Source: Spirosoma endbachense (lineage in GTDB: Bacteria > Bacteroidota > Bacteroidia > Cytophagales > Spirosomataceae). Taken from it: a stretch of DNA of 64,000 nt. The stretch spans positions 692,522-756,521 of the forward strand of contig NZ_CP045997.1 in NCBI RefSeq assembly GCF_010233585.1, read 5' to 3'. The notes beneath the pieces were generated by a model. The model saw only the letters and a list, made by a program, of their open reading frames with translations, did no database searches and had not been told where the DNA came from. A program made the position numbers and the translations under genes. Positions 2,905-18,382 of the stretch are shown in pieces (the stretch's first letter is position 1; every line of letters starts with the position of its first letter).

Positions 2905-3590
2905 AAAAGTACTATTAAAAAGGGTGAGTGAGATAAAGACAATCGGATAATAAGAAAGAGCTATGCTTTTTCTATATTATTCGAGCCAAAAGTATCCTTA
3001 TACCATTTTGAAAACCTACAGATTTAGTCGAAGATTGTCTGAAATCACAATTTCAGCGGATGAAATCACCCAAAAAGTCACTGAGTCTACATATATATAG
3101 ATTTACTATAGTTACATAAGCTTATTTTATTTATAAGTCTATATATTAATAGACTTTTATTAATATATAGACTTATAAATAAAAATTAATAGTTAATAAT
3201 GATAGATTTGAAATTCATGTTATTTTCATATGCTGCTTGTGACGAGTTTAAGGGCTAGAGTAACGAAGAAATTCTATTAAAGGATGTATATTCTTGGAAT
3301 AATCGTATAAAATATCCATTATTCTCGATGGAAATGTGGAAATAGTACAATATTTATCTGTGTTGATGATGTAGGCCTTTTGAGATATACTTTACCGCTA
3401 TGTGTACAAATTGGGAAAAACAATGGTAAAAATTTGCCGGTTATAGCGGGTCGATACGCTATTTGGGCTTGACGGCAGCAGGGCCGTCAAACGCTTTTAA
3501 CTTCGGAGTTGAATACTAAACAGAGAATTCGCTGCTTGGCTTGGAGGTTTGGGTCCCATATCGCTGCACTTCTTTAGATCGCCCTGCCTT
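2905..3590. other. AT-rich intergenic stretch without a gene
   Basis: No convincing coding frame on either strand. It holds the large palindrome at 3125-3184 and a weaker hairpin at 3469-3490 (TTGACGGC against GCCGTCAA). The 3060-3210 part is strongly AT-rich. The promoter of the lipoprotein gene at 1990-2904 must lie at its left end. Confidence 0.6.
3125..3184. repeat. Perfect 27-bp inverted repeat, 6-nt loop
   Basis: The arms 3125-3151 and 3158-3184 are exact reverse complements around GACTTT. The arms are almost pure A/T with a repeated TAAGTCTATA core. They sit in a gene-free region rather than at a gene end. Confidence 0.8.
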
Positions 3591-3840
3591 TTAGTTTCGC
3601 CATAGTGTCACTTCGACCGGAATGGTATTTGATTGTTGCTCAACACGGCTTTCATCGATCCGACCACGTAGTTCACACCTTTGATATGGACTTTTTTCCG
3701 GAAGGAGAACAAGGCCAGGTCCGCGGCCGACAGGTAGACCCTTTTCGTCACCGAAAACGTATTCTCCTGAAGGCTTCAAATTCTTTATTACCCACATCGA
3801 CCAGGTTGTTGGCCCCATGCCAGGTTAGGCTTCTATTCCC
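3591..3840 (-). pseudogene. Frameshifted remnant of an unidentified gene
   Basis: On the minus strand one frame reads LFSFRKKVHIKGVNYVVGSM and on to IPFRSK, then stops. The next frame, from the same point, ends IPVEVTLWRN at the stop at 3591. Joining the two gives a coherent C-terminus (hydrophobic KGVNYVV, then IPVEVTLW). Such tails are familiar from Bacteroidetes proteins near mobile elements, but I cannot name the family. Upstream, 3840-4340 shows only short broken frames on the same strand. Low confidence in identity, moderate in decay. Confidence 0.35.
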
Positions 3841-4686
3841 ATGAGCGCTGGTGGCTCGGGGTTCTCCGTCCACTAATCCGTTCCAAAATAACAGTTTCGG
3901 AGTCGAGTCATTTTTGCTATCCTTATTAGTAGGGAAAACCCCGACTGCTGGGTTATGGCTCGACCTGTCGCGGGGTCGGTAGCCAAAGTCGATATCCGCG
4001 ACTGAATTGCTACTAGATTGCTTCCCTCGTTCAAGGTCGTTTCGGCAGTGGTATACTTATCCAGTTGGGGTAGCAAACGATCGTTGTCAATACTCTAGTT
4101 CGCAAAGAGGAAGAGTCGCTGATGCCCTGTATGCTTTTGTGAGGCAGATGCTGTCAGTCATTGTGCGAGATGGTCCCAACAGTATGCGAAAGCCTAAGGG
4201 CTTAAGTAATAAAACGCCTGGCAGCTTGAAGTTTCGACTCTTCAAGCCCATTGCTGTCTGCGGCATAAATACACCCCGTCAATCGAATTTCATCTGGGGC
4301 CAGTTACAACCGAAGCCCCTATTGTCGATTTTCTGACAATTCTTCAAACGAAAGATCTGATACGGTTGCAGAACAAGTGCCTTTCACGGCTCTCTGTGGA
4401 CTAGCTAACAGTAGTAGGATTGTACGTTTTTCCAGCAGGAGGCTTAAGATTCCGGACAAATAAATAGCGTTGAACGATCTATTGTAATACTTGCGAGCGA
4501 ATGGAGAAAAAGCGACGAAAGTGATGGAATAAAAACGGCTTTTTTTTTCTTTCCAACCCCCAAATCACGGTAAATGACTGGTTTTACACCTGATCAGCAC
4601 GAAACCTGGCCGATGCAACTGTACCCGGCTATTGACTATTAACGATTTATTCCCTAATCTTACTCTTCAAAAAAACCTAAGACAAC
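3841..4686. other. Degenerate region, no supported gene
   Basis: Several short overlapping frames occur on both strands (for example 4007-4336 plus and 3873-4076 minus). None has a recognisable domain, a good start context or a signal peptide. The region probably contains further decayed sequence related to the remnant at 3591-3840. Confidence 0.4.
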
Positions 4687-4896
4687 TTGGACACACCAAC
4701 AAAGGAGTTTTGGAAAGATAGAGCCGAATCAATGGCCAGCGAGTTTGATCTGATTTCAAAGCAAATCAACTGGATTGAACTAAAGAAGGGGCGGGAAACA
4801 GGCAGTGAAAACTTGTTTATAATAAACCCTCACCTAGCATTTCTGGAATTTGTCAATAAGAGAAGGCAGGAAGCTGAGAAGATTTGTTGTAAATAG
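4687..4896 (+). CDS. Small charged hypothetical protein
   Basis: A 69-residue frame from TTG at 4687. The internal ATG at 4732 (MASEFDLISKQINWIELKK) gives a more conventional 54-residue start. The product is hydrophilic and helical, ends EAEKICCK, and has no motif I recognise. It stands alone between gene-free stretches, and its reality rests only on the open frame and reasonable composition. Confidence 0.35.
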   Translation: MDTPTKEFWKDRAESMASEFDLISKQINWIELKKGRETGSENLFIINPHLAFLEFVNKRRQEAEKICCK

Positions 4897-5129
4897 CAAT
4901 TAGAACCAAGTCGGCTATAATTCTCGTGGTTCGTCTCTTTAGCGAGTGTATGGCTACTACCCCAGGCTATTGTGGCGAAAGCGCACACAATAGTTCGGCA
5001 AGGCCTTGAAAGTGATTACTAAACGGCGACCCAGGCGTTGACGATCACCAAAGTACTGCTTAAAATAGGGAGCCTAGTACTTGACATGATGGCTTAGCTG
5101 CCGATCTTTATAATGTCATTAGATATAAG
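4897..5129. other. Intergenic stretch, nothing recognised
   Basis: No coding frame or clear structure was found between the small plus-strand gene and the terminator of the YiaA-like gene. Confidence 0.5.
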
Positions 5130-5176
5130 AAAACCTTCCGAATACTAGCACTGCATTGCTAATTTCGAAAGGTTTT
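5130..5176 (-). terminator. Terminator of the YiaA-like gene
   Basis: The arms AAAACCTTCCGAA and TTCGAAAGGTTTT pair almost completely (one bulge) around a ~20-nt loop. They are T-rich on the outside and lie 60 nt downstream of the minus-strand gene at 5239. Confidence 0.55.
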
Positions 5177-5238
5177 TACGTTGATAGCCATCTTTAAAAT
5201 TCGGGATGATTCATGCTTGTATGGCTTAATTTGATGAA

Positions 5239-5634
5239 TTAGTTCGTCTCGACAGTCTGGCTATCGCGCGTATTCTTCTGAACAGCGATTGCTCCAAATA
5301 AGGCCAATAGAAAAGCAAATGAATAAAAGCCTTTCTCGCTGGGTAATAATGTTGCATTCCATAAGCCTATGGTCAGTAAAACAATGGCGAGAATAGTAGA
5401 GAACCAGCTAAGACCATAATAAATATCAGTGACCGGAACCCTTTCTAATCGGTCTCGCACGCTTTTTTGTACTGATATCACGGAAAAAAGACCATACATC
5501 AGTACCGTGAAATAAAATCCTTTTTCATTCAGGAGCATTTCGGATCGCCAAAGACCGATTAAGAACCCAAACATTCCCGCACCCAAAGCTAGCCAGGATG
5601 CTCCAACAAATGCCATTGATGGTTTTTGATTCAT
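5239..5634 (-). CDS. YiaA/YiaB-family inner membrane protein
   Basis: Two tandem copies of a two-helix membrane unit of the YiaAB type. Each carries a GLWR/GLWN motif, then EKGFY and a VQK-x-xRD end (first copy about residues 8-60, second about 75-125). Four membrane helices are expected. The start was set at ATG 5634 (MNQKPSMAFVGASW), because the extra 18 residues available upstream are polar and not typical of the family. The molecular role of YiaA proteins is not established. The gene stands alone with its own terminator. Confidence 0.8.
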   Translation of the reverse strand: MNQKPSMAFVGASWLALGAGMFGFLIGLWRSEMLLNEKGFYFTVLMYGLFSVISVQKSVRDRLERVPVTDIYYGLSWFSTILAIVLLTIGLWNATLLPSEKGFYSFAFLLALFGAIAVQKNTRDSQTVETN

Positions 5635-6030
5635 TTCTGTAGTTTTGTTTACTAGTGCAATCTGGTTATTTATGTGATTAGATTGCAATGATTTCGTGCT
5701 TCGAAATTGGCGGAACTAATGACAGGAAACGATTGGAAATGAATAGTTGGTAGGAATGGGTAAATAAGTAACGTATGGGACTTACGGTTCCCAGAACCAA
5801 CGCCTGATAAAGTCAGATTTGTATTTGCCTGAATGGTCGATTTGCTGCTCTACGCTAGCGCATTCAATGGTCTATTTTTGCAAAATAGTAGAAATGAGCT
5901 TACTTTTGGGGTAATTAAACACAGGGTTGAGGTGGTAAATGGTATTGATGGCCACAATCAACTAAACAAGTCGAGATAATTAGTTTATGTTTTCGACCTC
6001 TGTAGTGTGGTCATTTTCGTATATATTTTT
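5635..6030. other. Intergenic stretch before the tRNA gene
   Basis: Contains the divergent upstream regions of the YiaA-like gene and of tRNA-Arg. No coding frame or repeat recognised. Confidence 0.5.
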
Positions 6031-6104
6031 GGTCCTGTAGCTCAGTTGGATAGAGCATCTGCCTTCTAAGCAGACGGTCAAGCGTTCGAGTCGCTTCGGG
6101 ATCA
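6031..6104 (+). tRNA. tRNA-Arg (anticodon TCT)
   Basis: A full cloverleaf can be drawn. The acceptor stem GGTCCTG/CGGGATC has two G-T pairs. The D arm is GCTC-AGTTGGATA-GAGC. The anticodon arm is TCTGC-CTTCTAA-GCAGA with anticodon TCT. The T arm is AAGCG-TTCGAGT-CGCTT and the discriminator is A. The 3' CCA is not encoded. This tRNA reads AGA/AGG arginine codons. Confidence 0.95.
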
Positions 6105-6110
6105 CATTGT

Positions 6111-6370: not shown

Positions 6371-8038
6371 TTATTGAGTAAACAACGTTTGTACTTCATT
6401 AGCTGATAGCACCCGACGATAAATTCGGACTTCGTCCATAGCGCCACTGAAATAGTTAGGGAACGTCTGAATCTGAGCGCCGAATTTCAATTCGCCCCCG
6501 GGGCATTTATCTATGCTTGCGGCCGGTAAATTGTCTTTTTGATCTAATAAAACTCCATTGAAATACATGCGGCTCGATCTGCCTGAGTAGGTAAAAACTA
6601 AATGATACCAGTTACCTAGCTGAGGGTTACTACTAAATTCAAAGCTTTGCCAGCCTTTTGCGACCTCGCAATTACTATTTTGTTTGATATTCGTCATAAA
6701 CGTGAGACCAGGCCCGGTTTCGTTTATTTTCACAAGCGAGCTATACATCTCGAACTTGCTATCACTCCAGCGCGATTTATTGTAAATCTGCATACGGTCG
6801 TTCACATTATTGATTGCATTTGGTTTGATCCATATGCTAATTGAGAACGCATCTGGCTGTAAACTCGAATTATCAGCCATATAGAAATAATCATTGATGC
6901 CATCTAACAGAATAGCCGCATTCGCCTTCCCTTTACGGTCTGAGGTGAAGCCAGGATTATCAATTAAAAGAGCATTGTTGCCATTTCCTGTAGCGTCCTG
7001 TAAGGACTTGTCGGTAAACGGCAAATATGCAATCAGGCCGTCCGCAACAGCATCCACTTGTGTTGTGAATGAATTAATAGGTCCATAAACAATCTCTCCT
7101 GAAGGCAGCTTTGCATAAGGCCGGTAATAGTAGGTTGTATTCGCCTTCAGATCTGTTAAGTTGACGAGCGTGTTAGCACCTAGATTTGGATTTGTCACTG
7201 TTACCCCCGGTCCGGAATTGTTTATATCGGGTGTACTGGACGTCGACGAATAAAGAACGCCATACTGAATGGCAGCTGGATTGCCGGGATTAGTTAGAAT
7301 AAAGCTCACTACGGCCGTAGAAACTCCCACAGTTGGATTTCCGTTGCTGGAAACGGATGGACCTACTCCTGTTCGAAAGGTTTGTGGATCACTATATCCA
7401 GTCTTACCCGCTGAGTTGGTGGCAAAACTGCGTACATAGTAAAGTGTGTTTGGTTGAAGACCAGTTAATGAGAATGGAACAGAAGTGTTAACAGCCAAAG
7501 AGCCTATAAGAGATTGTGTAGCGTCAGTCTCTTTCGTAGGCATCGTGTTTTTGTCAGAATAACAAACGCCATATTGCGTAATGGATGCATTACCAGTAGA
7601 TATTACAGTCATTCCCACTAATGCCGAACTGGTTACAATGTTAGTGGCTGCCTGTAAACTCACCGTTGGCGATACGGCATCGCTCACAACAATAACACTT
7701 TGTAACGTGGTTTCTACCAAACATGAGTTTGTCAGCGTAGCTTTAGCCGTGTATGTTCCCGAGGTGGGGTAAGTATAGCTGACGGTCATACCAGTAGTTG
7801 CCGTTGTACTGCCATTGCCAAAATCCCATAGTACACGATCAATAGTACCCGAGCTGCCAGTAATTGAAAAATCAACTTTGCGCTGCTGCATCTGCGCAAT
7901 AAGTGTTCCCTGGGGTTTAGTACAATTACGTTGTGATTTTCGGGTGGGTAATTCCCAGGATTCGCAAGCCCAAAGAAAAATACCGCCCAGGCAGATTAAA
8001 AGTATACTGAACAGGTATGTAAGTATAGTCTTCTTCAT
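6371..8038 (-). CDS. Lipoprotein with PKD, Fn3-like and LamG domains
   Basis: About 555 residues from ATG 8038 (MKKTILTYLFS). A lipoprotein signal ends LGGIFLWAC. A PKD domain (about 45-120) shows VLWDFGNGSTT and YTYPTSGTYTAKATL. Two fibronectin-III-like repeats follow (about 125-225 and 225-330), with the paired motifs NTLYYVRSFATNSAG and NTTYYYRPYAKLPSG. A concanavalin A-like/LamG domain (about 340-555) has DGINDYFYM, FSISIWIKP, WYHLVFTYSG and a terminal MDEVRIYRRVLSANEV. It probably sits on the outer membrane and binds glycan or protein. It is the last gene of the signalling operon, 49 nt after the TPR gene. The ATG at 8068 is less likely because it precedes the signal peptide. Confidence 0.85.
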   Translation of the reverse strand: MKKTILTYLFSILLICLGGIFLWACESWELPTRKSQRNCTKPQGTLIAQMQQRKVDFSITGSSGTIDRVLWDFGNGSTTATTGMTVSYTYPTSGTYTAKATLTNSCLVETTLQSVIVVSDAVSPTVSLQAATNIVTSSALVGMTVISTGNASITQYGVCYSDKNTMPTKETDATQSLIGSLAVNTSVPFSLTGLQPNTLYYVRSFATNSAGKTGYSDPQTFRTGVGPSVSSNGNPTVGVSTAVVSFILTNPGNPAAIQYGVLYSSTSSTPDINNSGPGVTVTNPNLGANTLVNLTDLKANTTYYYRPYAKLPSGEIVYGPINSFTTQVDAVADGLIAYLPFTDKSLQDATGNGNNALLIDNPGFTSDRKGKANAAILLDGINDYFYMADNSSLQPDAFSISIWIKPNAINNVNDRMQIYNKSRWSDSKFEMYSSLVKINETGPGLTFMTNIKQNSNCEVAKGWQSFEFSSNPQLGNWYHLVFTYSGRSSRMYFNGVLLDQKDNLPAASIDKCPGGELKFGAQIQTFPNYFSGAMDEVRIYRRVLSANEVQTLFTQ

Positions 8039-8086
8039 TTTTAATAGAAAATGTCGTGGTAAACTCAAAGGATGAGCCGGTTAACG

Positions 8087-8992
8087 TTAGAATGTGTAGC
8101 GAATAGCAAGGCCGAACGATTGAGACGATGGTTGCCAGTGGAAGCCAGTAGCGCGGGGCGTTTTTGGTGATTTATGGAGTAACAGATATAGCTCAGCAAC
8201 GGTGGCTACTGCCGCGATCCCAATACTGGCTTTGTATAAACCATTTCTTTTCTGAGCAGACTCGGCAGCATTATAAGCGTCATTATATTGCCGATAGGCA
8301 TCTGGATTATCGATAATACCCGTGCCTGAAGGGTCAACCGTTTGGCTAATCTGGCTTAAAGTGCCCATTTTATTCTGAAAATCATTACGCAGCAACAAAG
8401 CAAAAGCACCTGCACCCACTGCCACAAGGCCGGTTGCCACTTTTAGCCCTACTTGTTTCGACGGTTTTAATAGATTGTCAATTGTCCGGATTTGCAGACG
8501 TAAGGTTTCCTGCCGGGTGGTTGTATACTTGAGCGCCTGCGTGTAGCTTTCCCGGGCGGGTATATATTTTTTCTGATTGAAAAGCTGGTTGCCTTCGCGT
8601 TCGTAATAATCTGCAAGTTGGGTCTTTGTGACCGCATCATCAGGATTAAGATTCAACAGTTGGCCAAATAGCCGGATAGCTTCCTGCCCTTTATTCTGCG
8701 CGAGCGCATCGGTAGCCTGTTGACGTAGGGCTAAACCTTTTGTACACTCCTCAATCTGTTCCTTGGCATAAATGTCATTTTCAAAGCCTGGCACTTCAAG
8801 GCAGTTCTGATATTGTCGGCGGGCTTCCAGGTATCTACCTTCTTTAAAGAAATCATCGCCTTTCTTTTTGTAACGGTCATATTCATCATCGGTCAGTAGG
8901 CTTACTACTGAAGTTCGCCCACTAGCCAGCGTTGATGCTATGGGGGCCGATAAAAACAGGAAGAATAGAAGCAGGTAAAACGGTTTGATCAT
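8087..8992 (-). CDS. TPR-containing envelope protein
   Basis: This 301-residue protein has an N-terminal signal peptide (MIKPFYLLLFFLFLSAPIAS). TPR-type helices span about 35-175, with repeats around GDDFFKEGRYLEARRQY, AIRLFGQLLNLNPDD and GNQLFNQKKYIPARESY. Two hydrophobic Ala/Gly-rich segments follow (about 185-203 and 255-275). The end FGLAIRYTF has the terminal aromatic typical of outer-membrane proteins. It begins 10 nt after the kinase gene, whose own TPR-like segments use similar wording (ARxxYEQ, F-QAKxYYEQ), so the pair may form a scaffold. The exact role is unknown. Confidence 0.75.
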   Translation of the reverse strand: MIKPFYLLLFFLFLSAPIASTLASGRTSVVSLLTDDEYDRYKKKGDDFFKEGRYLEARRQYQNCLEVPGFENDIYAKEQIEECTKGLALRQQATDALAQNKGQEAIRLFGQLLNLNPDDAVTKTQLADYYEREGNQLFNQKKYIPARESYTQALKYTTTRQETLRLQIRTIDNLLKPSKQVGLKVATGLVAVGAGAFALLLRNDFQNKMGTLSQISQTVDPSGTGIIDNPDAYRQYNDAYNAAESAQKRNGLYKASIGIAAVATVAELYLLLHKSPKTPRATGFHWQPSSQSFGLAIRYTF

Positions 8993-9001
8993 TAGGGTTG
9001 A

Positions 9002-11203
9002 TTATTGATTAGTACATAGTTTAATTTTTGACTGCACATCACGCGTTTCTTTGAGGGCCTGCGCAACTTTATACCACTCTTTGGCTCCGTCATATTCTTC
9101 ATTATCGAAGATTTTGTTGCCTTTATTCATATACGTGCTATACGCTGCATCAGCCTTAGCCGTATTGAGTTCATGTTCTTTCGCTAGTGCACGGGCGGCC
9201 GTAAAATCTGCGATTGCCTTCGCTTTATTGTTTCCTCTAGAAATCGCCTTCTGTCCATCCTCAATGAGTTGATCATATTTTTCTTGCGCTGCCAACTTTG
9301 GGTTGACCGTATTGTCAGGAGCTGATTCTTTGGGCGCTTCTACTACGGTCGGCTTTGAAGGTTCCAGTACAGGACTATTCTCTTGGCCATTAGTCTTGTC
9401 ATTTTCCTTTGGCTTTTCAGGCGTCAGTTCGTCGATTTCTTTAAGCGCAATCCGGTGCAATCTGGACACGTCCTGCCGAGTAGGGTCGAGTCGAAGGGCA
9501 GGGGTAGTGAACTCGATAACTTTTTTGTAATCTTTTTGTCTAAAGGCTTGTCTGGCATTTTTGAATGCAAAATCGACCTGTTGATCGACCGCGCTATTTT
9601 TTGTATCACCCGCTATCGGGAGCCGTGCAGTGTTTTCTCGGTGGGCAGATTCTGGAGGTCTGGTTTTAGTGAGTGGGACAACTGTTGCCGTCGATATGTC
9701 AGGCTTTTGGTCGATATGGAGAGACACGTAATACAGAATACTACCTCCCAGTGTCATAGCAATTACTACGGGAGCGACTACCCGCCAGGGAAAACGTTTT
9801 TCAGAATCAGAAATAGTACTTGACTCAACTATATCTTGATATATAGCTGTCTTGAGTGCCGTAGGCCTGTCAGTATTTTTCTTTTCTAAAGCTACCTTAA
9901 CTGAATCAGGCTGTTTTTGGTCGGCCGAAGAGGGGTGCAGAGCAACAAGTGGAGTAGTATATACATCGGTTCTTTCCTCCTGAAATACATCTGTCAGTTC
10001 AACTTTTTGAATAGCCACCGGCTTTGGTCGGAGCTGTTCGATACATAACACCAAACCTTGAGCAGCCTCCTGACGATTAGGCGATAGGCGTAAAACCTGT
10101 TCGTAATAGAGTTTAGCTTGCTCAAATTGTTGTTGAGTCACAAACGTGCCAGCCTGTGCCAGTAAGTTATCAATCTGTTGATTGGTAATCCGTAATTTGC
10201 AGAATTCCAGTCCTTTCTGGGCATCAATGTGATGCTCGCGCTTAGCCAGAATTTGCTCATATCGCAAACGTGCCTGCTCAAACTCATTTTGAGAAATGAG
10301 CTTTTTCGCTTCACTCAGTAGCTGGGGAATTCGATCAAGAAGGTCTAATAATTCATCTTCTTTACGAACCCGGTCATGAATATCCCGTACCAGGCATCGC
10401 CTGATCATAGCCTGGTATGGCTCTTCAATTTGATTGAGTTGAGATGGTAATTCAACGGTAATGATTTTTTTCTCGATCTCGCGTCGCACCGATTGTTCAC
10501 TGCTATTGCGCAAATCGGAGCGAAAAGGCTTTTCGCCTGTTAGCATCTCAAATAAAATGACACCAAAAGCCCATAAATCAAGATTGAAGCTTACCCTACT
10601 GCCTTCAATTTGTTCCGGGGCTTTGTAGGAAGGTGTACCACGGCCATCACTTAGATCAAAATCGGAGCTGTCAAGTTCATCGTCGCTGACTAACTTACTC
10701 AGGCCAAAATCTGCTATTTTAGGAATAAACCGACCCGCGTTATCACGGGAAATAAGAATATTGGCAGGCTTAAAATCACGGTGAACAATACGATGGCGAT
10801 GAAGATGCTGTAGGCCCAACAAAATACCCCTGGTTATATCATAAATCTGGGGCGCTGTTAGGTTAATCCGACGCAACAAATCAGCTAGATTTCCATCAGG
10901 ATAGTATTTCATGATGGCAAAATCACTAACACTCGTATCCGTTTCAAGCCGATAGCAAGCGTCGTAACGAGCAATATTCCCTTGCCGGGGGATTCGTTGG
11001 GCCAATTCGACTTCAGCTTTTAACGATTTAGTATCATTGCCTTTATACTCGCTGATCTTAATGGCTACCCACTCCGTTTCAAGTTGGTCTTCGACTTTAA
11101 TAACTCGCCCATACGATCCACTGCCCAACAGCGAGCCTTCGTCGTTGGGTCGAATCGGATACCGTCGTTTGAAGTCCAGAAAAGAAGTAAAGCTTTGACT
11201 CAT
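9002..11203 (-). CDS. Transmembrane Ser/Thr protein kinase with TPR-like repeats
   Basis: This 733-residue protein has an N-terminal Hanks-type kinase domain (about 20-290). It shows the Gly loop GSGSYGRV, the ATP lysine in VAIK (K49), the helix-C glutamate near E64, the catalytic loop HRDFKPAN (D143), DFG at 165-167 and the GTPSYKAPE activation end. All catalytic residues are present, so it should be active. TPR-like repeats follow at about 295-390, then a single membrane segment near residue 480 (VVAPVVIAMTLGGSILYY). An outer region of further helical repeats with Lys/Pro/Glu-rich linkers ends the protein. The layout suggests a cytoplasmic kinase with an extracytoplasmic sensor. It lies in the same operon as a PP2C phosphatase and two FHA proteins, its expected antagonist and readers. 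Confidence 0.92.
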   Translation of the reverse strand: MSQSFTSFLDFKRRYPIRPNDEGSLLGSGSYGRVIKVEDQLETEWVAIKISEYKGNDTKSLKAEVELAQRIPRQGNIARYDACYRLETDTSVSDFAIMKYYPDGNLADLLRRINLTAPQIYDITRGILLGLQHLHRHRIVHRDFKPANILISRDNAGRFIPKIADFGLSKLVSDDELDSSDFDLSDGRGTPSYKAPEQIEGSRVSFNLDLWAFGVILFEMLTGEKPFRSDLRNSSEQSVRREIEKKIITVELPSQLNQIEEPYQAMIRRCLVRDIHDRVRKEDELLDLLDRIPQLLSEAKKLISQNEFEQARLRYEQILAKREHHIDAQKGLEFCKLRITNQQIDNLLAQAGTFVTQQQFEQAKLYYEQVLRLSPNRQEAAQGLVLCIEQLRPKPVAIQKVELTDVFQEERTDVYTTPLVALHPSSADQKQPDSVKVALEKKNTDRPTALKTAIYQDIVESSTISDSEKRFPWRVVAPVVIAMTLGGSILYYVSLHIDQKPDISTATVVPLTKTRPPESAHRENTARLPIAGDTKNSAVDQQVDFAFKNARQAFRQKDYKKVIEFTTPALRLDPTRQDVSRLHRIALKEIDELTPEKPKENDKTNGQENSPVLEPSKPTVVEAPKESAPDNTVNPKLAAQEKYDQLIEDGQKAISRGNNKAKAIADFTAARALAKEHELNTAKADAAYSTYMNKGNKIFDNEEYDGAKEWYKVAQALKETRDVQSKIKLCTNQ

Positions 11204-11233
11204 AGTAAAAGTTTGTGTTACAAAGTATCTGAT

Positions 11234-12019
11234 CTAAAGGTAGGCTAAGCCCAGCTCATCCGAAAAATGACCATAAAAAATGGGGGTCTGCTGTCCTTGG
11301 GTGACACGCCGAACTCTGGGCGCTACATAGCGATGCAGTTCGCGAATGGTTACAACTTTATCACTGTTGAGATCAGCTTGGCCACTCAATCCTTTAAGCA
11401 AATAATGCGTAAACGCTCCACCAGCCAACTGGCCAGCTTCAACAGCACTTTGTGTCGATCGACTGGCCAGTAACATGGCTACGTTATTATCGTCGCTAAC
11501 GGTACTCGCTATAGTTTGGACCAGACTCCGTTGGCTTGCCTTCTGGTAGGTCATGCCTCCCGACAAACACGCATCAGCTATGCACAATTTAGTCGATGCC
11601 TTTGAGTCATGAAAGGCAGCCTTTATATCTTGATAAGTCAACAGATTTTGTTGATTATCTAGCTGAACATCATAGGGCACAAAGCTGCTGGGTAAGCCGT
11701 GCCCCGAAAAATAGAAGATAACGCGATCTCCTGCTTTAGCCTCTCGAAAAAGTGATAAGGCTTGTCGAATATTGGCATGAGTAGCCTGCCGATTCGTTAA
11801 GAAACGGATATGTGAGGCTGGTACAGCCCCTCCAGATCTGGTTTGCAAAAAAGTAACGACTTGCTGAGCGTCTCTGTCCGCAAATCTCAGATCGCCAGTC
11901 AGGCGGGTAAGTGCTTTATAGTCAGAAATGCCGACCACGACAGCGTACGTCTGTTTCTGAGGTTCTGCATTGAGCAAGGCGATTAAAGCACCCAGATAAG
12001 TTAGTAAGTTAGCAAGCAT
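11234..12019 (-). CDS. Caspase-like (C14) protease with EF-hand motif
   Basis: This 261-residue protein begins with a short hydrophobic segment (residues 1-18, signal or anchor). A caspase fold follows (about 24-200): start YAVVVGISDY, catalytic His in FYFSGHG (H107) and catalytic Cys in IADACLSGG (C151). Near the C-terminus, DLNSDKVVTIRE is a canonical EF-hand loop with ligands at positions 1, 3, 5, 7, 9 and 12, so calcium may control activity. It overlaps the phosphatase gene by 11 nt and is followed 31 nt later by the kinase. Bacterial C14 proteases (metacaspase/orthocaspase types) usually cut after basic residues; the substrate here is unknown. Confidence 0.88.
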   Translation of the reverse strand: MLANLLTYLGALIALLNAEPQKQTYAVVVGISDYKALTRLTGDLRFADRDAQQVVTFLQTRSGGAVPASHIRFLTNRQATHANIRQALSLFREAKAGDRVIFYFSGHGLPSSFVPYDVQLDNQQNLLTYQDIKAAFHDSKASTKLCIADACLSGGMTYQKASQRSLVQTIASTVSDDNNVAMLLASRSTQSAVEAGQLAGGAFTHYLLKGLSGQADLNSDKVVTIRELHRYVAPRVRRVTQGQQTPIFYGHFSDELGLAYL

Positions 12020-12827
12020 CTTTAAGGGAAATTGTGGGAGCTAAAATCGATTTTACTTGGATCATCACATCGCTGATACCTATTAAATAGCCAGAGTAAT
12101 TGTCTTTTGTCCGATCAGCGCATAGCGCCAGAAGAGACTGCATTTTTGCCTGATCAGGTATATCCTGAGCCAATAAAGTTTCCAGCGCATAATCGTCAAG
12201 CTGTTCCAGCACACCATCCGTACACAGAAAAAAATAGTCGCCAGCTTGAATATCGGTTAAGACTGTAATATCGGGTGTTGGTTTCGTCGCTTCTTCATAA
12301 TCCGAACTAGCGATAACAGCCCGGCTGAGCCTGTTTCGCCAGGGGTGAGTTAAAGCCTGGGTAGCTGTGATAACTCCGGCCTCCACCATATCATTTACCT
12401 GTTTATGATCCTGGGTTTGAAAGATAATCTTACCCTCTCGTAATTGATAGACCCGGCTGTCACCAATATGAGCTACTGTAGCTCCGTGCTTGTGTAATTG
12501 TAATAAAGTAAGTGTCGACCCCATCCGACTGACAAGTGGATGCTGACGTAAGTACTCATGGTAAGCGTTATAGGCCTGATCGAGAGCTGCTTTCAAATGG
12601 GGGCCGTCGAAAACGGGATTACCCATTGAAGACGCGTAAGCCACAATTGCCTCACATAACAATTGGCTAGCTACTTCACCTTTGTCTACCCCGCCCATAC
12701 CATCACAAACGATAAAAAGCTGTGTTTGCTCGTTTGCTGTATCTATAGCGGGATACAGAGTATCCTGATTAATAGTCCGTTGGCCAATGTGCGAAAAAGC
12801 AACAGGTAAACTTGGATAAATAAGCAT
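12009..12827 (-). CDS. PP2C-family Ser/Thr phosphatase
   Basis: This 272-residue protein is the length of stand-alone bacterial PP2C (PPM) enzymes. The metal-binding aspartates are visible: D22 in RTINQD, D42 in VCDGMGG, D204 in LCTDGVLEQL and D242 in KDNYSG. The central IGDSRVY motif is also present. It should dephosphorylate Ser/Thr targets of the kinase encoded two genes downstream. The protein is soluble with no signal peptide. Its start is 3 nt downstream of the FHA gene's stop and its end overlaps the caspase gene, so translation is probably coupled. Confidence 0.92.
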   Translation of the reverse strand: MLIYPSLPVAFSHIGQRTINQDTLYPAIDTANEQTQLFIVCDGMGGVDKGEVASQLLCEAIVAYASSMGNPVFDGPHLKAALDQAYNAYHEYLRQHPLVSRMGSTLTLLQLHKHGATVAHIGDSRVYQLREGKIIFQTQDHKQVNDMVEAGVITATQALTHPWRNRLSRAVIASSDYEEATKPTPDITVLTDIQAGDYFFLCTDGVLEQLDDYALETLLAQDIPDQAKMQSLLALCADRTKDNYSGYLIGISDVMIQVKSILAPTISLKDAC

Positions 12828-12830
12828 AAG

Positions 12831-13433
12831 CTATTGAGTACGGTCAGGGTTGAATGCTAATTCAATTTTATATGTATTGAGCATTTCCGGATTAATGCAA
12901 TAATGCGTTAATTGAAATCGGTCAGCCCCTCCCAGAGAGATTATTCCATCGATACTGACATCAATAAGTTCGTTTTTTTGCAAGAGCACTCCATTAAGCA
13001 GCGTACCATTTAGACTCGACTGCTGTTGCTGAGTACTGGAATCAATAAATCCATCCTGCAATTGGTAGCGTAATTGACCAATCCATTTATCGAATGTAAC
13101 CGTTATCGTACAATGCCGACGACTGATAAAACATCGGTCATTGTGCATAAACCGATCAATCTGTATGGTACAAGAATCGGAAGTGCCCAGTATATTACTC
13201 CCAAATTGAAGTAAATATGTCTTTTCAGGCTTGTCCAGATAGGTCAGATGACCGAAGCCAGGTAGCCCCTGTACAATAGTTTCATCGTAATAAAATCCGG
13301 CTTGCAATGTGTTTAGCGCTCCGCACCCAATATGTGAGCAAATAATTGTCCCCCGTTCAGCATCGGCTGCCCTTACTAGGATACGGCGATTACATTCTCG
13401 GCAATTAATAAGTGTTGTTCTGAAACCTTCCAT
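12831..13433 (-). CDS. FHA-domain protein with N-terminal zinc-finger-like region
   Basis: A 200-residue protein. Residues 11-37 hold a C-x2-C ... C-x4-C arrangement (C11, C14, C32, C37) that could bind zinc. An FHA domain follows (about 70-165), with ILGTSDSCTIQID, FISRRHCTI and SLNGTLLNG marking the phosphothreonine-binding loops. Ser, Arg and Asn at the usual contacts are present. It should bind phosphorylated partners of the kinase. It lies 5 nt after the preceding gene's stop and 3 nt before the phosphatase. Confidence 0.88.
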   Translation of the reverse strand: MEGFRTTLINCRECNRRILVRAADAERGTIICSHIGCGALNTLQAGFYYDETIVQGLPGFGHLTYLDKPEKTYLLQFGSNILGTSDSCTIQIDRFMHNDRCFISRRHCTITVTFDKWIGQLRYQLQDGFIDSSTQQQQSSLNGTLLNGVLLQKNELIDVSIDGIISLGGADRFQLTHYCINPEMLNTYKIELAFNPDRTQ

Positions 13434-13438
13434 ACGTA

Positions 13439-14314
13439 TTACTCATCCATTTCATGGACATCACCATCATTTATATACGTATCATCAGTCTCGTTTGCAT
13501 CCGCCATAAAGTGATCACTCCCTGGCTCTGATTCTACCTCAGCTGGATCATCTACAGGTGTAGCATTTGCTGGCGCATCTGTTTGGAGTATTGACTCCAC
13601 GACTCCATGGGACATACTTTCCTCCAGCCCCTGACTAAACTGATCATTACTTAGCACAAATGGCGCATCAATTTTTTCAACCTGCGTGAGTTCACCACTG
13701 AGTGAATCATAGCGAAATAAAGTATCTAATCCCTGATCGCCAGTTGCGTCGACTACTCGATAGGTGTTACCATCTTCACCCTCCATGACCAGTGTGTCGA
13801 TAATGCCATCCCGATCAAAATCGAGTCCCATTACCCGCTGGCCATTGAGGTGCCCTTCAATAATCGTTGGCTCTATGGGGGGCTGGTCAGGTATGGTTTC
13901 AGAAACCTTTACAGCAGCGCTATAGGGTTTAACGGGTAGGTGTTCCTGAGTAACCATCTCGGTAAACTCCTGGCGTTGTTCAAGCGATAAACTGCTCCAT
14001 TCTTCCTTTTCAAATGTATTATACCAGCTTCCGTGCCAACTAAATACACCTCCCATTCCCACTTCGTGACGAGCGGCTTCATAAGCTTGCTCAAAGGTCA
14101 TATTTTCCGTTACTTTCCCTGCGACATCAATATCAATAGGTAGGGCAGAGGTTGTTGGCGGGCTTGCAGGATTATTTCCTTCAGAGGGTTGCTCTGTGGT
14201 ATCTGCTTTAATTGCCCAGGCTGCACCACCTAGTAGTAAAGTAGCCGCTGAGATTCCCAAAATTTTCTTTTGCTTAGTATCGAGACCAGACTTTGGGGGG
14301 GTAGATGATTGAGC
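13439..14314 (-). CDS. Membrane-anchored acidic protein of the signalling operon
   Basis: The start was set at ATG 14314 (MAQSSTPPKSGLDTKQKK), just ahead of a single membrane helix (ILGISAATLLLGGAAWAI). The ATG at 14365 would add 17 polar residues. The outer part has a conserved-looking segment with FSWHGSWYNTFEKEEW (about residues 100-115). A stretch of Asp-rich text follows (FDRDGIIDTLVMEGEDGNTY, then DATGDQGLDTLFRYD) resembling calcium-binding or beta-propeller-like repeats, and a very acidic tail. The family is unknown to me. Its place among phospho-signalling genes makes it a candidate substrate or scaffold. Confidence 0.7.
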   Translation of the reverse strand, partial: AQSSTPPKSGLDTKQKKILGISAATLLLGGAAWAIKADTTEQPSEGNNPASPPTTSALPIDIDVAGKVTENMTFEQAYEAARHEVGMGGVFSWHGSWYNTFEKEEWSSLSLEQRQEFTEMVTQEHLPVKPYSAAVKVSETIPDQPPIEPTIIEGHLNGQRVMGLDFDRDGIIDTLVMEGEDGNTYRVVDATGDQGLDTLFRYDSLSGELTQVEKIDAPFVLSNDQFSQGLEESMSHGVVESILQTDAPANATPVDDPAEVESEPGSDHFMADANETDDTYINDGDVHEMDE

Positions 14315-14443
14315 CATTAAATACGTATCGGTTTGAAATTCTGATTGGTTAGGAGACGGTGCCATTGTAATGGAATAATTAAAGTTGCATAATGTGGGTT
14401 AATCGAACTAGATGGGAAAAAGTGAGTGAAAAAATGAAAAAAA

Positions 14444-15226
14444 TTAACTAACCCACATAGCCTGACAGCGACGACATGTTTTCTGCTGGGCCAGAAGTTC
14501 CCATTCGCGTGAACCAAAAGGGTCACGACAAACCGGGTTCGGGCATCGGTAACGATCTCGGTATTCTTTATCAATAACTTCTAGCTTTTCGTCGGTCGAT
14601 AAAAGTGTAGAACATAGAGTAGGTACTAACATACTTAAACCAGCTCCAGACATAATATGAAGTAGTGGCAGGGCTGTTCCTCCCGTAGTTAATACTGCGC
14701 TTACGCCTACAATGGATGAGAGTATAACACTACCTGTGCGAATCATTTTTTCTCGATTGCGGCAATCTCGACGTAGTTTAGGATATTGTTCGTAGACTTG
14801 TTGCAACGCTGCAAACTGATCTATAAAATCCAGAGCGGACTTATCAGGTTTAGATTGATTACTGGTAACTGGTTTTTCCAGAGGAATAGGAGCGGGCGTT
14901 TTGGTGAGTTTGCTTTTGCCCAAGTCAAGTAATTGGCTTACCGTAAAACGGGAATCAGCAAGTTGTATGGAGTCCTGACTATCTACGACTTTTCTTGTAA
15001 TTCGCGTACCGTTGACAAAGGTGCCGTTTTTGCTGTCAAGATCCTCAAGGATAAAACAGGTAATTGTGCATTGAATCAAGCGGGCATGCTGGCCGCTGAT
15101 TTTCCCATTAGGAATGATAATCGTATTGTCTTCTTTTCGCCCAACACTGTATATAGGGAGCTGACTTAACTCATCGATCAGGTTTTTAAACTGACCATCG
15201 CTTATAGGTAATGAAACAAGAGACAT
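14444..15226 (-). CDS. FHA-domain membrane protein with C-terminal zinc ribbon
   Basis: A 260-residue protein with an FHA domain at about 22-100: YSVGRKEDN, ISGQHARL (S44, H47) and SKNGTFVNG (N67-G73). These are the classic phosphothreonine-binding loops. A proline/lysine linker and a coiled segment follow, then two hydrophobic segments (about 165-210) and a C-terminal Cys cluster (RCPNPVC ... CRRC) likely to bind zinc. It is the first gene of the eight-gene operon and differs from the second FHA protein in being membrane-anchored and having its zinc site at the other end. Confidence 0.87.
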   Translation of the reverse strand: MSLVSLPISDGQFKNLIDELSQLPIYSVGRKEDNTIIIPNGKISGQHARLIQCTITCFILEDLDSKNGTFVNGTRITRKVVDSQDSIQLADSRFTVSQLLDLGKSKLTKTPAPIPLEKPVTSNQSKPDKSALDFIDQFAALQQVYEQYPKLRRDCRNREKMIRTGSVILSSIVGVSAVLTTGGTALPLLHIMSGAGLSMLVPTLCSTLLSTDEKLEVIDKEYRDRYRCPNPVCRDPFGSREWELLAQQKTCRRCQAMWVS

Positions 15227-15880: not shown

Positions 15881-16732
15881 ATGCGCTGGATTACCCGCGA
15901 ACGTCCTAAAATTGACCGGCTTGCCTGTCCCTGGCTAATCCGTCGATTTATTGACCCGGAAGCCGACATTATTTTCGTACCAGAATCGCAGGTACAAATG
16001 AAAGCGCAGGAATTAGACGCGACGCCATTCGACATTCCGGGGGTAGAATATACGCATTACGAAGGCCGCTGCACATTTGATTATTTCCTGGAAAAACACG
16101 CGCTAATTGATCCGGCCCTACAGACAATAGCTCCCATCGTTCGGGGAGCCGACATTGACGACCATTTGCTGGCTCCGCAGGCGGCTGGACTTTGGGCCAT
16201 TTCGGCAGGTATGGCTCTCAACATCCGTGACGATCAGGAGTTGCTGGTACAGGGAATGATTTTGTATGATGCGCTTTATAGTTGGGCAAAATACCTACAG
16301 CGCCAGAAGCACACTCAAAGCCCGACAGAAAAGCTATTGCTACAGGTGCTTCATACCTACGAAAAACCGAAGAAAAAAGCACCCACCTGGGTGAAGGAGC
16401 TTCGGGAAATGATTCAGGACCAGATTGATACCAATCTGTCGCTGAGCCTGAAAGGCTTATCGGAGAATCTGTCGGTCAATCCCGCCTATCTGTCGCGAGA
16501 GTTCTCGCGGTATTTCGATAATCTGTCATTTGGCGAATACATCCGCAAACTTCGTATCGAAAAATCGCTTCAACTGCTGGAATCAACAGCTTATACACTC
16601 TCTGAAATAGCTTACCTGACTGGCTTCTCTGATCAGAGTCATTTTACCCGGATTTTTAAGAAACAGATCGGGAAAAACCCCTCCGAGTACCGAAAAAGGT
16701 GGCTAAAAGGTAAAGCAGATACAAAAGGTTAA
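15881..16732 (+). CDS. ChrB-like domain fused to AraC-type DNA-binding domain
   Basis: This 283-residue protein has an N-terminal part (about 1-135) that matches the ChrB C-terminal/chromate-resistance domain: MRWITRERPKIDRLACPWLI, then IRRFIDPEADIIFVP, then HYEGRCTFDYFLEKH and VRGADIDDH. A linker leads to an AraC/XylS helix-turn-helix pair (about 185-280) with LSENLSVNPAYLSREF and SEIAYLTGFSDQSHFTRIFK. The AraC half should bind promoter DNA and the ChrB half may sense an oxyanion or redox state. It heads a plus-strand group that ends in ChrA, so it is likely the local regulator. Confidence 0.85.
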   Translation: MRWITRERPKIDRLACPWLIRRFIDPEADIIFVPESQVQMKAQELDATPFDIPGVEYTHYEGRCTFDYFLEKHALIDPALQTIAPIVRGADIDDHLLAPQAAGLWAISAGMALNIRDDQELLVQGMILYDALYSWAKYLQRQKHTQSPTEKLLLQVLHTYEKPKKKAPTWVKELREMIQDQIDTNLSLSLKGLSENLSVNPAYLSREFSRYFDNLSFGEYIRKLRIEKSLQLLESTAYTLSEIAYLTGFSDQSHFTRIFKKQIGKNPSEYRKRWLKGKADTKG

Positions 16733-16797
16733 TTCTATTCTATTTTTCGGGCAAAGGTGCTTGTAGCATTGTAATCGAAATCGTTTATGATTACTGT

Positions 16798-17355
16798 ATG
16801 CAACAACGTTACTCTCTTGATTTGGAGCCTGATTCTTCCCGTAAAAGAATAATCATTCAGAGTTTATTCTGGCTGCTGATTGCAATTTGGCCAATTGATG
16901 TCAGTGCGCAAACCATCGCGCCAACTCCACCCCGAATGGCCGGTTATCTGGGCATACTTCACCCGCTGGTTACGATTGATGGCAACGGTAGCGAGACTAA
17001 TTTTTCTGATTATTACGTTGTCGGATTTCCGATCGGGCTGAATCTGTGGAAGACCGAGCGAGTTGGCTTTTCGGTCGAGATTGTACCCATTATTCGGGCA
17101 GAAAACCACGTCAGTCGGGTTAGCAACGTGTTGTTTCACCCCGGTATACTGCTTAATTTAGGAAACGGGTTCGCGTTTGCGGGTCGACTGGCTTTTGAAA
17201 CAAACGGGCGCTATGGTGTCACACCAGTATTTAACAAAGTTGTAAAGCGGAATAAACACAGTAACTATTTCGTAGCTATACCCATTCCGGTTCGGTTTGG
17301 TAATGATCGCTCTACTTCAGCCACCGTTGGTTTCCAGTTTGGTATTGCGTTTTAA
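16798..17355 (+). CDS. Small outer-membrane-type hypothetical protein
   Basis: A 185-residue protein with a hydrophobic N-terminal signal (IIIQSLFWLLIAIWPIDVSA, cleavage likely after AQ). Alternating beta-strand-like text and a terminal aromatic (FQFGIAF) suggest a small beta-barrel. Motifs such as GFPIGLNLW and FHPGILLNLGNGFAFAGRL resemble outer-membrane barrels. It lies between the regulator and the DUF1259 gene, 2 nt before the latter's first possible start. The link to chromate handling is only positional. Confidence 0.6.
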   Translation: MQQRYSLDLEPDSSRKRIIIQSLFWLLIAIWPIDVSAQTIAPTPPRMAGYLGILHPLVTIDGNGSETNFSDYYVVGFPIGLNLWKTERVGFSVEIVPIIRAENHVSRVSNVLFHPGILLNLGNGFAFAGRLAFETNGRYGVTPVFNKVVKRNKHSNYFVAIPIPVRFGNDRSTSATVGFQFGIAF

Positions 17356-17390
17356 AAATGCACATTCGCTGTCAGCTTAACCTTTCTGCC

Positions 17391-18374
17391 ATGTCTATGA
17401 AACGAAGAAATTTTCTGCAAACGGCGATCGTGGCAGGTGCCATTCCCATTTGCTCGACTTCCGGTACCGATGCGTTACCCATTGGGCCGACCCCCGCTTT
17501 GTCGGTGGAAGAACAGGACGCCATCGCCACTGCTCTGGGGAAGAAAGGAACTTACACCGAAGCTCAGGCTACCTACTCAGTCCCCTTACCGCGTGCGGAC
17601 CTTAAGGTGACCCTAAAAGGTGAACCTGTTCCTATTCCGTTTGGCTTCGGCGGATGGGTTGCTTTCAAGAAAACACTCGACGGAAAGCAGACCGTAATGA
17701 TGAGCGATACGGTTCTGCTCGAAGAAGAAGTGAACCCATTGATCGATTCAGTCCATGTTGCCGGGCTGGAGATCGGCGCTATTCACAATCACTTTTTCTA
17801 CGAGCAACCCCGCATTTTTTACATGCATCTGCACGGTATGGGCGATGTGAGAAATCTGGCAAAAAAGTATGCTCAGGCTATTCAAAATACGAAGCTTTTT
17901 CCGGCCAATCAGCTCAGTGCAGCCAAAATAGCGACCGCACCAGCAACCGTTTCCCAAACGAGTAAGGAATTGTTTGATTTGCCGGTCCTCGATGAGATTG
18001 TGAAGTATAAAGGAGTGGTCAATGGGCCGACCTACAAATATACTGTGGGCCGTGATGACGTGCAGATTACGGCGATGGGTGCAGAAATGACTGCGGCTAT
18101 CGGGTTAAATTCCTGGGCGTCCTTGGCGGGTCAGCAGTCTGGTGCCCACATAGCGGGCGACATTGCTATGCTCGAAAGTGAAGTGAATTCAGTCGTAAAA
18201 ATCTTACGGAAGAATAACCTGGAAGTAGTTGCCCTTCATCACCATATGCTGGGTGACCAACCCCGAACGGTGTTTTTACATTACTACGGTCGCGGCCCTG
18301 CCACCGATCTGGCGCGTGGCTTTCGGGCAGCTTTGGACCAGCTCGGTAAAGGAACACCAGCTATGAAGCATTAA
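17391..18374 (+). CDS. DUF1259 (LppY/LpqO-family) protein, exported
   Basis: About 327 residues from ATG 17391 (MSMKRRNFLQTAIVAGAIP), whose RR-x-FLQ and hydrophobic stretch look like a Tat-type or related signal. Two DUF1259 repeats are visible. The first ends in EIGAIHNHFFYEQPRIFYMH plus LHG, the second in VVALHHHMLGDQPRTVFLHY. The duplicated His-rich blocks may bind metal. It is commonly seen beside ChrA. It ends 8 nt before chrA here, so the two are surely co-transcribed. Confidence 0.85.
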   Translation: MSMKRRNFLQTAIVAGAIPICSTSGTDALPIGPTPALSVEEQDAIATALGKKGTYTEAQATYSVPLPRADLKVTLKGEPVPIPFGFGGWVAFKKTLDGKQTVMMSDTVLLEEEVNPLIDSVHVAGLEIGAIHNHFFYEQPRIFYMHLHGMGDVRNLAKKYAQAIQNTKLFPANQLSAAKIATAPATVSQTSKELFDLPVLDEIVKYKGVVNGPTYKYTVGRDDVQITAMGAEMTAAIGLNSWASLAGQQSGAHIAGDIAMLESEVNSVVKILRKNNLEVVALHHHMLGDQPRTVFLHYYGRGPATDLARGFRAALDQLGKGTPAMKH

Positions 18375-18382
18375 GCAACGCC

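Follow-up and report, generated by a model that had tools for sequence, protein, structure and literature searches.

The window analysed here, a 64,000-nt stretch of the Spirosoma endbachense genome (NZ_CP045997.1, positions 692,522 to 756,521; a single contig of 10.33 Mb), carries an operon of eight minus-strand genes, g1 to g8, at 6371–15226: an FHA membrane protein (g1), an acidic membrane protein (g2), a zinc-FHA protein (g3), a PP2C phosphatase (g4), a caspase-like protease (g5), a Ser/Thr kinase (g6), a TPR envelope protein (g7) and a PKD/LamG lipoprotein-like protein (g8). The operon is real and is conserved beyond chance. Its gene linkage, domain content, motif recurrence and hydrophobic segments were interpreted, with slightly more confidence than doubt, as those of a trans-envelope threonine-phosphorylation switch, which would share its working principle with the PpkA/PppA/Fha pathway of type VI secretion systems (T6SSs). 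An earlier description of the window from its letters alone (the sequence-only reading) had recognized the operon; a linked sigma/anti-sigma-like pair, T6SS-linked sister loci, gene fusions, a shared TDx[FY] motif and the degeneracy of the second FHA domain had been missed by it.

Conservation of the operon

The list of open reading frames (ORFs) contained all eight genes exactly where the sequence-only reading had put them, and in the same order. Intergenic gaps, from g1 to g8, were 78, 5, 3, -11, 30, 9 and 18 nt; the earlier description of gaps of 3–50 nt with one overlap therefore applied to most of them, including the overlap, but not to the 78 nt following g1. Manual reading of the sequence indicated a likelier start for g8 at the ATG at 8038, in which case the gap between g7 and g8 is 48 nt.

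Conservation of gene order in relatives had been set beforehand as a test of the operon. A search with the caspase of 150 genomes of the family, from 36 genera, gave matches at E <= 1e-3 in 80 genomes, among which a strong class of 39 matches (E <= 1.5e-42) was set apart from the next match at 2.4e-30. Neighbourhoods were read for all 39 (the window and loci L037–L074), and for L075 and L076 from among the many weaker matches; all 39 strong-class caspases adjoined at least g3 and the PP2C gene, and neither gene lay alongside the two weaker ones. Loci of the window's type (type 1) accounted for 24 of the 39, from 24 of the 150 genomes and ten genera, eleven of them belonging to the window's own genus, of which 18 genomes were sampled. 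The type-1 set was brought to 25 by L036, from another collection, and 22 of these were complete, since L036, L059 and L060 are ended by contig ends. The order g1–g7 held, whole and identical, in all 22, with one lipoprotein-like gene inserted between caspase and kinase in four of them (L053–L055, L058), while g8 was kept in place in 17 of the 25. The inserted protein may be a stand-in for g8 in L053–L055, L058 and L059; that of L053, to which the Pfam result is confined, matched an SBBP propeller and, weakly, PKD. Comparison of the window with its nearest relative, L037, gave nonsynonymous divergence (dN) of 0.148–0.244 with synonymous divergence (dS) saturated for all eight genes, and so dN/dS is low but inexact. 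The linkage in relatives bears out the earlier view of a co-inherited kinase/phosphatase/FHA module that spans the envelope. A search of a plasmid collection produced no near match, and a search for related loci returned one locus.

A second copy of the module, L057, is present in the window's genome at approximately 10.003–10.012 Mb and belongs to another class (type 2). It comprises a different kinase, an FHA protein, a longer g2 with repeated calcium-like motifs, a zinc-FHA protein, a long PP2C with a WG repeat, a caspase, a sigma factor and a short anti-sigma-like protein.

A recurrent motif in the kinase and its membrane partner

Each of the 25 type-1 kinases had the pattern T-D-x-[F/Y/V] in its cytosolic linker, against 1.3 predicted from shuffled sequences; the narrower T-D-x-[F/Y] was likewise present in all 25, and at least twice in 22. 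Per 100 aa, TDx[FY] occurred 1.30 times in the linkers (48 occurrences, 3704 aa) and 0.025 times in 367 other genes (28 occurrences, 113800 aa); the kinase domains (7375 aa) had none. Over the last ~80 residues of the linker, median identity to the window's sequence was 0.35, compared with 0.87 for the kinase domain. The cytosolic tails of type-1 g2 proteins shared the motif: among 24 untruncated tails (L060 was left out), 20 contained TDx[FY] and 22 the looser TDx[FYVH], the shuffle expectation being 0.8 in a count with a cruder cut that also gave 20 of 24. TDx[FY] is likely to be a phospho-epitope for FHA domains, and its occurrences were treated as candidate sites.

The C-terminus of g3 ended in D-x-T-[Q/E] in all 23 type-1 copies examined (those of L039 and L041 were missed by gene calling). 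The 14 other g3 proteins from L057–L074 all had T-[V/I]-[hydrophobic] near the end, as did 12 of 14 more distant ones, judged by eye. In PP2C, the TDx[FYV] of 23 of the 25 copies coincides with the position of the catalytic TDGV; being uninformative, it was set aside.

Fold and probable location of the caspase

Catalytic motifs were present in all three enzymes, as had been claimed: VAIK/HRD/DFG in g6, CDGMGG/GDSR/TDGV/DNYSG in g4 and, in g5, a dyad of H107 (window 11699–11701) and C151 (11567–11569) that was invariant in 25 aligned relatives. D98 and D149 were invariant in the same alignment, acids that are consistent with a preference for Arg/Lys (a basic P1); the stretch after the dyad bears an EF-hand-like pattern. 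The AlphaFold2 model of g5 (mean predicted local distance difference test, pLDDT, 91.3) matched MALT1, metacaspases and legumain in Foldseek, and a caspase profile retrieved metacaspases and legumain from the PDB, with the yeast metacaspase at 4e-11; the caspase sequence, compared directly with the PDB, matched nothing. g5 is a metacaspase-like protein with an intact His-Cys dyad in a caspase fold.

The caspase is probably periplasmic, as judged from an export-like N-terminus and from fusions to PP2C. Its Pfam domain begins at aa 25, directly after a hydrophobic N-terminus. The best 12-residue hydropathy within the first 30 residues had a median of 2.23 in 27 caspases (the remainder failed the pattern used), as against 0.69 in 40 PP2C, 0.56 in 37 g3 and 0.45 in 38 g1 proteins; 26 of the 27 caspases exceeded 1.6, the exception being L070 at -0.22, which has an over-long ORF start, while the control maxima were 1.47 (PP2C), 1.26 (g3) and 1.54 (g1). 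In L058 and L059, PP2C and caspase form one ORF with a basic-hydrophobic segment in between. Similar fusions made up 12 full-length protein clusters (P0121–P0132) among the 120 listed of 636 relatives, and a hydrophobic stretch preceded the caspase in 11 of these, the twelfth not being placed by the pattern. As PP2C acts on cytosolic phosphoproteins, such a segment would put the caspase in the periplasm. The N-terminus and the fusions together argue against the idea of a death or defence switch in which the caspase is set free within the cytosol.

The core without the caspase and its proximity to T6SS genes

The core of the module consists of g1 (FHA, membrane and zinc elements), the acidic calcium-motif protein g2, the zinc-FHA protein g3, PP2C and kinase. 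Each member of the strong caspase class was found with this core, and the core does not need the caspase. Profile searches placed the g2 family in at least 23 of 291 genomes of the order and at least 7 of 395 of the phylum (two of these weak), and a larger alignment in at least 42 of the 150 family genomes. Fifteen further loci were read (L123–L137), of which 12 contained g1, g2, g3, PP2C and kinase together, and the other three (L129–L131) g1- and g2-like genes, with a very weak g3 in two. A caspase was present in L123, L124, L126 and L127 and was not found in the stretches read of the other eleven. The core and caspase genes of L124 lie on both strands beside genes that we take, from their N-termini, to be ExbB/ExbD/TonB-like.

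TssC (PF17541) was detected in 45 of the 150 family genomes, and its proximity, defined as within 40 kb on the same contig, was determined for the 56 g2 loci of that sample; two short, weak g2 matches in genome G131 (~8.68 Mb) were left out. TssC was near 16 of 30 non-type-1 core loci, none of the 24 type-1 loci and neither of two loci unassigned to a type (G029:C67:72117-73031 and G033:C288:6157-7074). Approximately 0.42 would be expected for the 27 loci in TssC-bearing genomes, assuming genomes of 7 Mb. The 16 loci span seven genera; ten come from two genera and so the counts are not independent. Individual loci showed the same association: core and caspase adjoined T6SS genes in L070/L171 and L072/L172, and lay next to genes common to many T6SS clusters in L062 and L063, while a core without caspase adjoined T6SS genes in L187 and L135, the latter being resembled by L136 and L137. 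TssC, VipA, VgrG-type, TssD and ClpV-type genes were confirmed by Pfam in L135, and T6SS genes of the other loci were recognized by clustering. Through this proximity of its sister loci, the core resembles the threonine-phosphorylation pathway of T6SSs. Surface proteins with type IX secretion system (T9SS) sorting tails adjoined the two core loci tested for them (L134, L072).

The TssC proteins of the family fall in two score classes, at ~690–760 and 468–541 bits, with one at 603; those beside the 16 core loci belong to the lower class in all but genome G016. Near T6SS clusters, caspase-like proteins with export-like N-termini were also seen in the window's genome (L179:11939-12691, recognized by eye) and in G143 (L178:14083-16947, a 124-bit caspase match), both apparently outside the operon's caspase family.

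A linked sigma/anti-sigma-like pair

In most type-1 loci, genes for a sigma factor and an anti-sigma-like protein are convergent with the end of the operon, and the same pair directly follows the caspase in six type-2 loci. Among the 23 type-1 loci with enough flanking sequence it was present in 20 and missing from the window, L037 and L052. When one pair was run on Pfam, the sigma factor passed the cut-off for sigma-70 region 4 and failed the extracytoplasmic function (ECF) model, and its partner matched only TPR; the labels 'ECF' and 'anti-sigma' derive from size, position and architecture. A sigma profile gave ten matches of 289–326 bits in nine chosen genomes, all ten operon-adjacent, with nothing else above 115 bits; six of the ten were the profile's own training sequences and four were not. 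In a phylogenetic tree the module sigmas, of which 24 are distinct (34 rows counting duplicates), formed a single clade with support of 90/92, below the tool's star, within which type 1 and type 2 were separate. Sigma factors adjacent to L073 and L074 were placed elsewhere in the tree, and were rejected as module sigmas and left uncounted.

The window's genome holds only the type-2 sigma copy, near 10.01 Mb, and no sigma or anti-sigma remnant was found in the window (the 2905–5900 stretch included) or in L037. The four T6SS-adjacent caspase loci (L062, L063, L070, L072) had no module sigma; this suggests, though from as few as four loci, that the sigma pair and the T6SS are alternative outputs. 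A central membrane segment was indicated by hydropathy above the threshold in 15 of 20 type-1 anti-sigma-like proteins. In five of the six type-2 loci with a module sigma, the anti-sigma-like protein was short (135–178 aa) and had no such segment.

Proposed mechanism and alternatives

In the proposed switch, three components would sense a surface or periplasmic cue: the lipoprotein g8, the TPR protein g7 and the periplasmic part of the kinase. The kinase would then phosphorylate itself, at the TDx[FY] threonines of its linker, and g2, at those of the cytosolic tail; g1, as the canonical FHA protein, would dock on these phospho-sites with the zinc-FHA protein g3 as scaffold, and PP2C would reset the phosphorylation state. 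The single membrane helix of g2 would carry that state across to the protein's periplasmic domain, with its calcium motif, and on to the exported metacaspase-like protease, a periplasmic enzyme in this scheme that would probably cleave after Arg/Lys. The output would be modular, being the sigma/anti-sigma-like pair in most standalone loci and a T6SS in others. The caspase is given its part in this scheme with low confidence.

Several observations weigh against the switch. Four of the 24 g2 tails have no TDx[FY], and two of these no looser form either; the periplasmic parts of the kinases hold four TDx[FY] in 5824 aa, and TDx[FYV] turns up sporadically elsewhere (g1 1/24, g3 1/23, caspase 3/17, g7 3/22, sigma 1/18, anti-sigma 1/20). 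The sequences compared are related, such that motif counts are not independent events. TDx[FY] was not shared by the type-2 kinases in the 16 linkers examined, and so the type-2 epitope would differ. Pfam recognized FHA twice, in keeping with the two FHA readers first described; however, the arginine of the FHA Gly-Arg pair, which binds phosphate, was lacking from g3 in 23 of 23 type-1 copies, although 14 other g3 proteins keep it. In type 1, therefore, the phospho-sites are more likely to be read by g1, with g3 serving more as a scaffold. In the window's caspase, no positive charge precedes the hydrophobic stretch of the N-terminus, whose hydrophobicity was matched by 72 of 5000 shuffles. Finally, no type-1 locus lies near a T6SS, and the window and its nearest relative, genome G146, have neither a linked sigma pair nor a remnant of one, so that the sigma output step is missing from both.

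One of the original proposals was a regulated cell-death or anti-phage system, in which phosphorylation releases a cell-killing caspase. Caspase, kinase and FHA domains do occur in described bacterial conflict systems (PMC7159879, PMC8195603), the caspase matched its PADLOC model at 8.8e-20 and the kinase many models (mad6 best, 1.5e-56), and presence in 24 of the 150 family genomes is patchy, as with many defence systems. Yet PADLOC matched kinase, caspase and phosphatase alone, through common domains, and left g1, g2, g3, g7 and g8 unmatched, while NCBIfam scores were below cut-off both for MAD6 (109.7 against 460) and for caspase_w_EACC1 (90.2 against 140). With the export-like N-terminus and the PP2C fusions placing the protease outside the cytosol, a death or anti-phage system was considered distinctly improbable. 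The operon was judged to be better explained by a phosphorylation switch at the envelope, proposed with moderate confidence and with its caspase exported, than by a death switch in the cytosol.

Two other explanations were considered. The periplasmic caspase might cut the TPR-bearing anti-sigma-like protein and so free the sigma factor, after the manner of other site-1 proteases. The linkage in 20 of 23 informative type-1 loci, the predicted membrane segment in 15 of 20 type-1 partners and the single clade of 24 module sigmas are all consistent with this, as is the EACC2 caspase system, which likewise has an ECF sigma and a TPR protein (PMC8195603). It is nonetheless unlikely: a periplasmic protease would not reach the short, segment-free proteins of five of the six type-2 loci, a linked pair is missing from the window and from G146, and the anti-sigma function is itself inferred, Pfam showing TPR only in the one protein tested. 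Alternatively, what the operon regulates might be not transcription but a surface or secretion machine, either a T6SS acting in trans or surface proteins, g8 among them. Sister core loci adjoin T6SS clusters in several genera, T9SS-tail surface proteins stand beside core loci L134 and L072, and the window's genome has one TssC match (G000:C1:3575555); but this lies ~2.9 Mb from the operon, none of the 24 type-1 loci is near a TssC gene, and seven of the 24 are in genomes without any TssC match. This explanation, too, was considered unlikely.

The phosphorylation switch remained the favoured interpretation. A wider claim was put forward tentatively, as possible rather than probable: that the module is a modular phospho-threonine cassette of the Cytophagales, in which a TDx[FY] epitope for FHA is common to the kinase and its membrane partner, an exported caspase is physically linked to PP2C across the inner membrane, and evolution has connected the whole to either of two outputs, a sigma/anti-sigma pair or a T6SS. 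Bacterial caspases are usually treated as death or immunity proteases; if the proposal is true, this one would be a signalling protease that acts across the envelope together with a kinase and a phosphatase. It would also, to our knowledge, be the first of the caspase family to form the periplasmic side of a Ser/Thr phosphorylation switch in bacteria. Single peptides would suffice to test the kinase-FHA connections predicted from TDx[FY], and the T6SS-linked sister loci suggest how phosphorylation could control type VI systems of the Bacteroidota. No description of the operon was found in the published literature, as judged by titles and the openings of abstracts, with subscription papers outside the scope; the terms caspase, peptidase and C14 were absent from the available portion of the main text of a PP2C classification paper.

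Gene content and surroundings

The domain calls of the sequence-only reading were upheld by Pfam for FHA (twice), PP2C, caspase C14, kinase, TPR and PKD/fn3/LamG (Table 1). Invariant columns in the g1 alignment were G29, S44, H47, C228, P229, C233, C251 and C254. No Pfam family matched g2 in a scan of the eight proteins; it had 152 relatives at E <= 1e-3, its AlphaFold2 model (mean pLDDT 69) was confident only at ~aa 80–145 and 165–240, and no PDB structure matched its fold at E below 0.09. g4 scored 154.8 bits on NCBIfam Stp1, under the 230-bit cut-off.

Table 1. Genes and candidate motif sites of the operon (window positions)
Feature	Position	Strand	Basis
g1: FHA, hydrophobic membrane segment(s) at ~aa 161–204, C-terminal Cys4 ribbon (C228/C233/C251/C254)	14444..15226	-	Pfam FHA 1.2e-15, alignment, hydropathy
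g2: acidic, single-pass; TDTY in the cytosolic N-tail; conserved domain and DxDxDG repeat on the periplasmic side	13439..14365	-	topology from hydropathy
g2 T-D-T-Y (aa 12–15), candidate phospho-threonine FHA epitope	14321..14332	-	motif recurrence in type-1 g2 tails
g3: N-terminal Cys4 ribbon (C11/C14/C32/C37), FHA without canonical GR Arg; C-terminus DRTQ	12831..13433	-	Pfam, alignment
g4: PP2C Ser/Thr phosphatase	12009..12827	-	Pfam PP2C_2 6e-16
g5: caspase/metacaspase-like protease, export-like hydrophobic N-terminus	11234..12019	-	Pfam C14 8e-20
g6: Ser/Thr kinase, cytosolic TPR/linker, transmembrane segment at ~aa 475–493, periplasmic part	9002..11203	-	Pfam Pkinase 2.9e-48, TPR_2; hydropathy
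g6 TDVF (aa 404) and TDVY (aa 412), in tandem within the cytosolic linker; candidate sites of autophosphorylation and FHA docking	9959..9994	-	motif recurrence
g7: TPR protein, hydrophobic N-terminus (aa 5–23) and two later hydrophobic segments	8087..8992	-	Pfam TPR_2 4.8e-8
g8: lipoprotein-like PKD/fn3/LamG surface protein	6371..8068	-	Pfam; lipoprotein nature read by eye from N-terminus

Scans of the window for transcription signals gave 23 promoter-like sites (shuffle mean 19.7) and 10 terminator-like sites (9.1 in shuffles); a Bacteroidota-type promoter pattern matched twice where 2.42 were expected. A gene-poor stretch of ~3 kb (2905–5900) follows the operon and a tRNA-Arg gene (6031–6105) on the downstream side, where relatives have the sigma pair; the stretch is possibly decayed mobile DNA. 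Upstream, the plus strand at 15881–19531 carries what we take to be a chromate-resistance cluster, with a ChrB-like protein with an AraC-type end, a DUF1259-like protein and a chromate transporter.

Comparison with known systems

The TerY-P triad combines a kinase and a PP2C with a vWA protein (TerY). The operon has the first two, but no vWA domain was matched by Pfam among its eight proteins, and the comparison with TerY-P drawn by the sequence-only reading was not sustained. EACC1-caspase systems are two-gene conflict systems of a caspase and a membrane partner (PMC7159879), a pairing that the operon shares; its neighbours are otherwise different, and g5 falls short of the caspase_w_EACC1 cut-off (NF047832), as given above. 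In Myxococcus, among others, metacaspase genes share operons with sigma-70 genes (PMC3501461), and thus resemble the present loci in joining a metacaspase to a sigma factor, but no PP2C or FHA partners are named in the available portion of that paper.

In EACC2-caspase systems, the caspase gene lies near an ECF sigma gene and a DUF1822 TPR protein (PMC8195603). The caspase of the window likewise has a TPR gene nearby; a sigma pair was seen in 20 of 23 informative type-1 loci and is absent in the window. The difference is that no extra domain precedes the g5 caspase: this domain starts so soon after the hydrophobic N-terminus that there is no room for an EACC2 domain, although the comparison was made without an EACC2 model. 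The kinase, PP2C and FHA proteins of the operon are, in addition, separate conserved genes.

The threonine-phosphorylation pathway of T6SSs unites the kinase PpkA, the PP2C phosphatase PppA and Fha. It differs from the operon in that no T6SS genes are present at the window locus, that the operon adds two FHA-zinc proteins, the g2 family and an exported caspase, and that the proposed phospho-tail belongs to g2 and not to TssL. In Agrobacterium, PpkA phosphorylates TssL at Thr14, and Fha binds it (PMC3953482); an FHA domain reading phospho-threonine on an inner-membrane protein is what the present reading would share with that system, the sites here being candidates. The two are alike also in encoding a membrane Ser/Thr kinase, a PP2C and an FHA protein together, and sister loci of the core adjoin T6SS genes.

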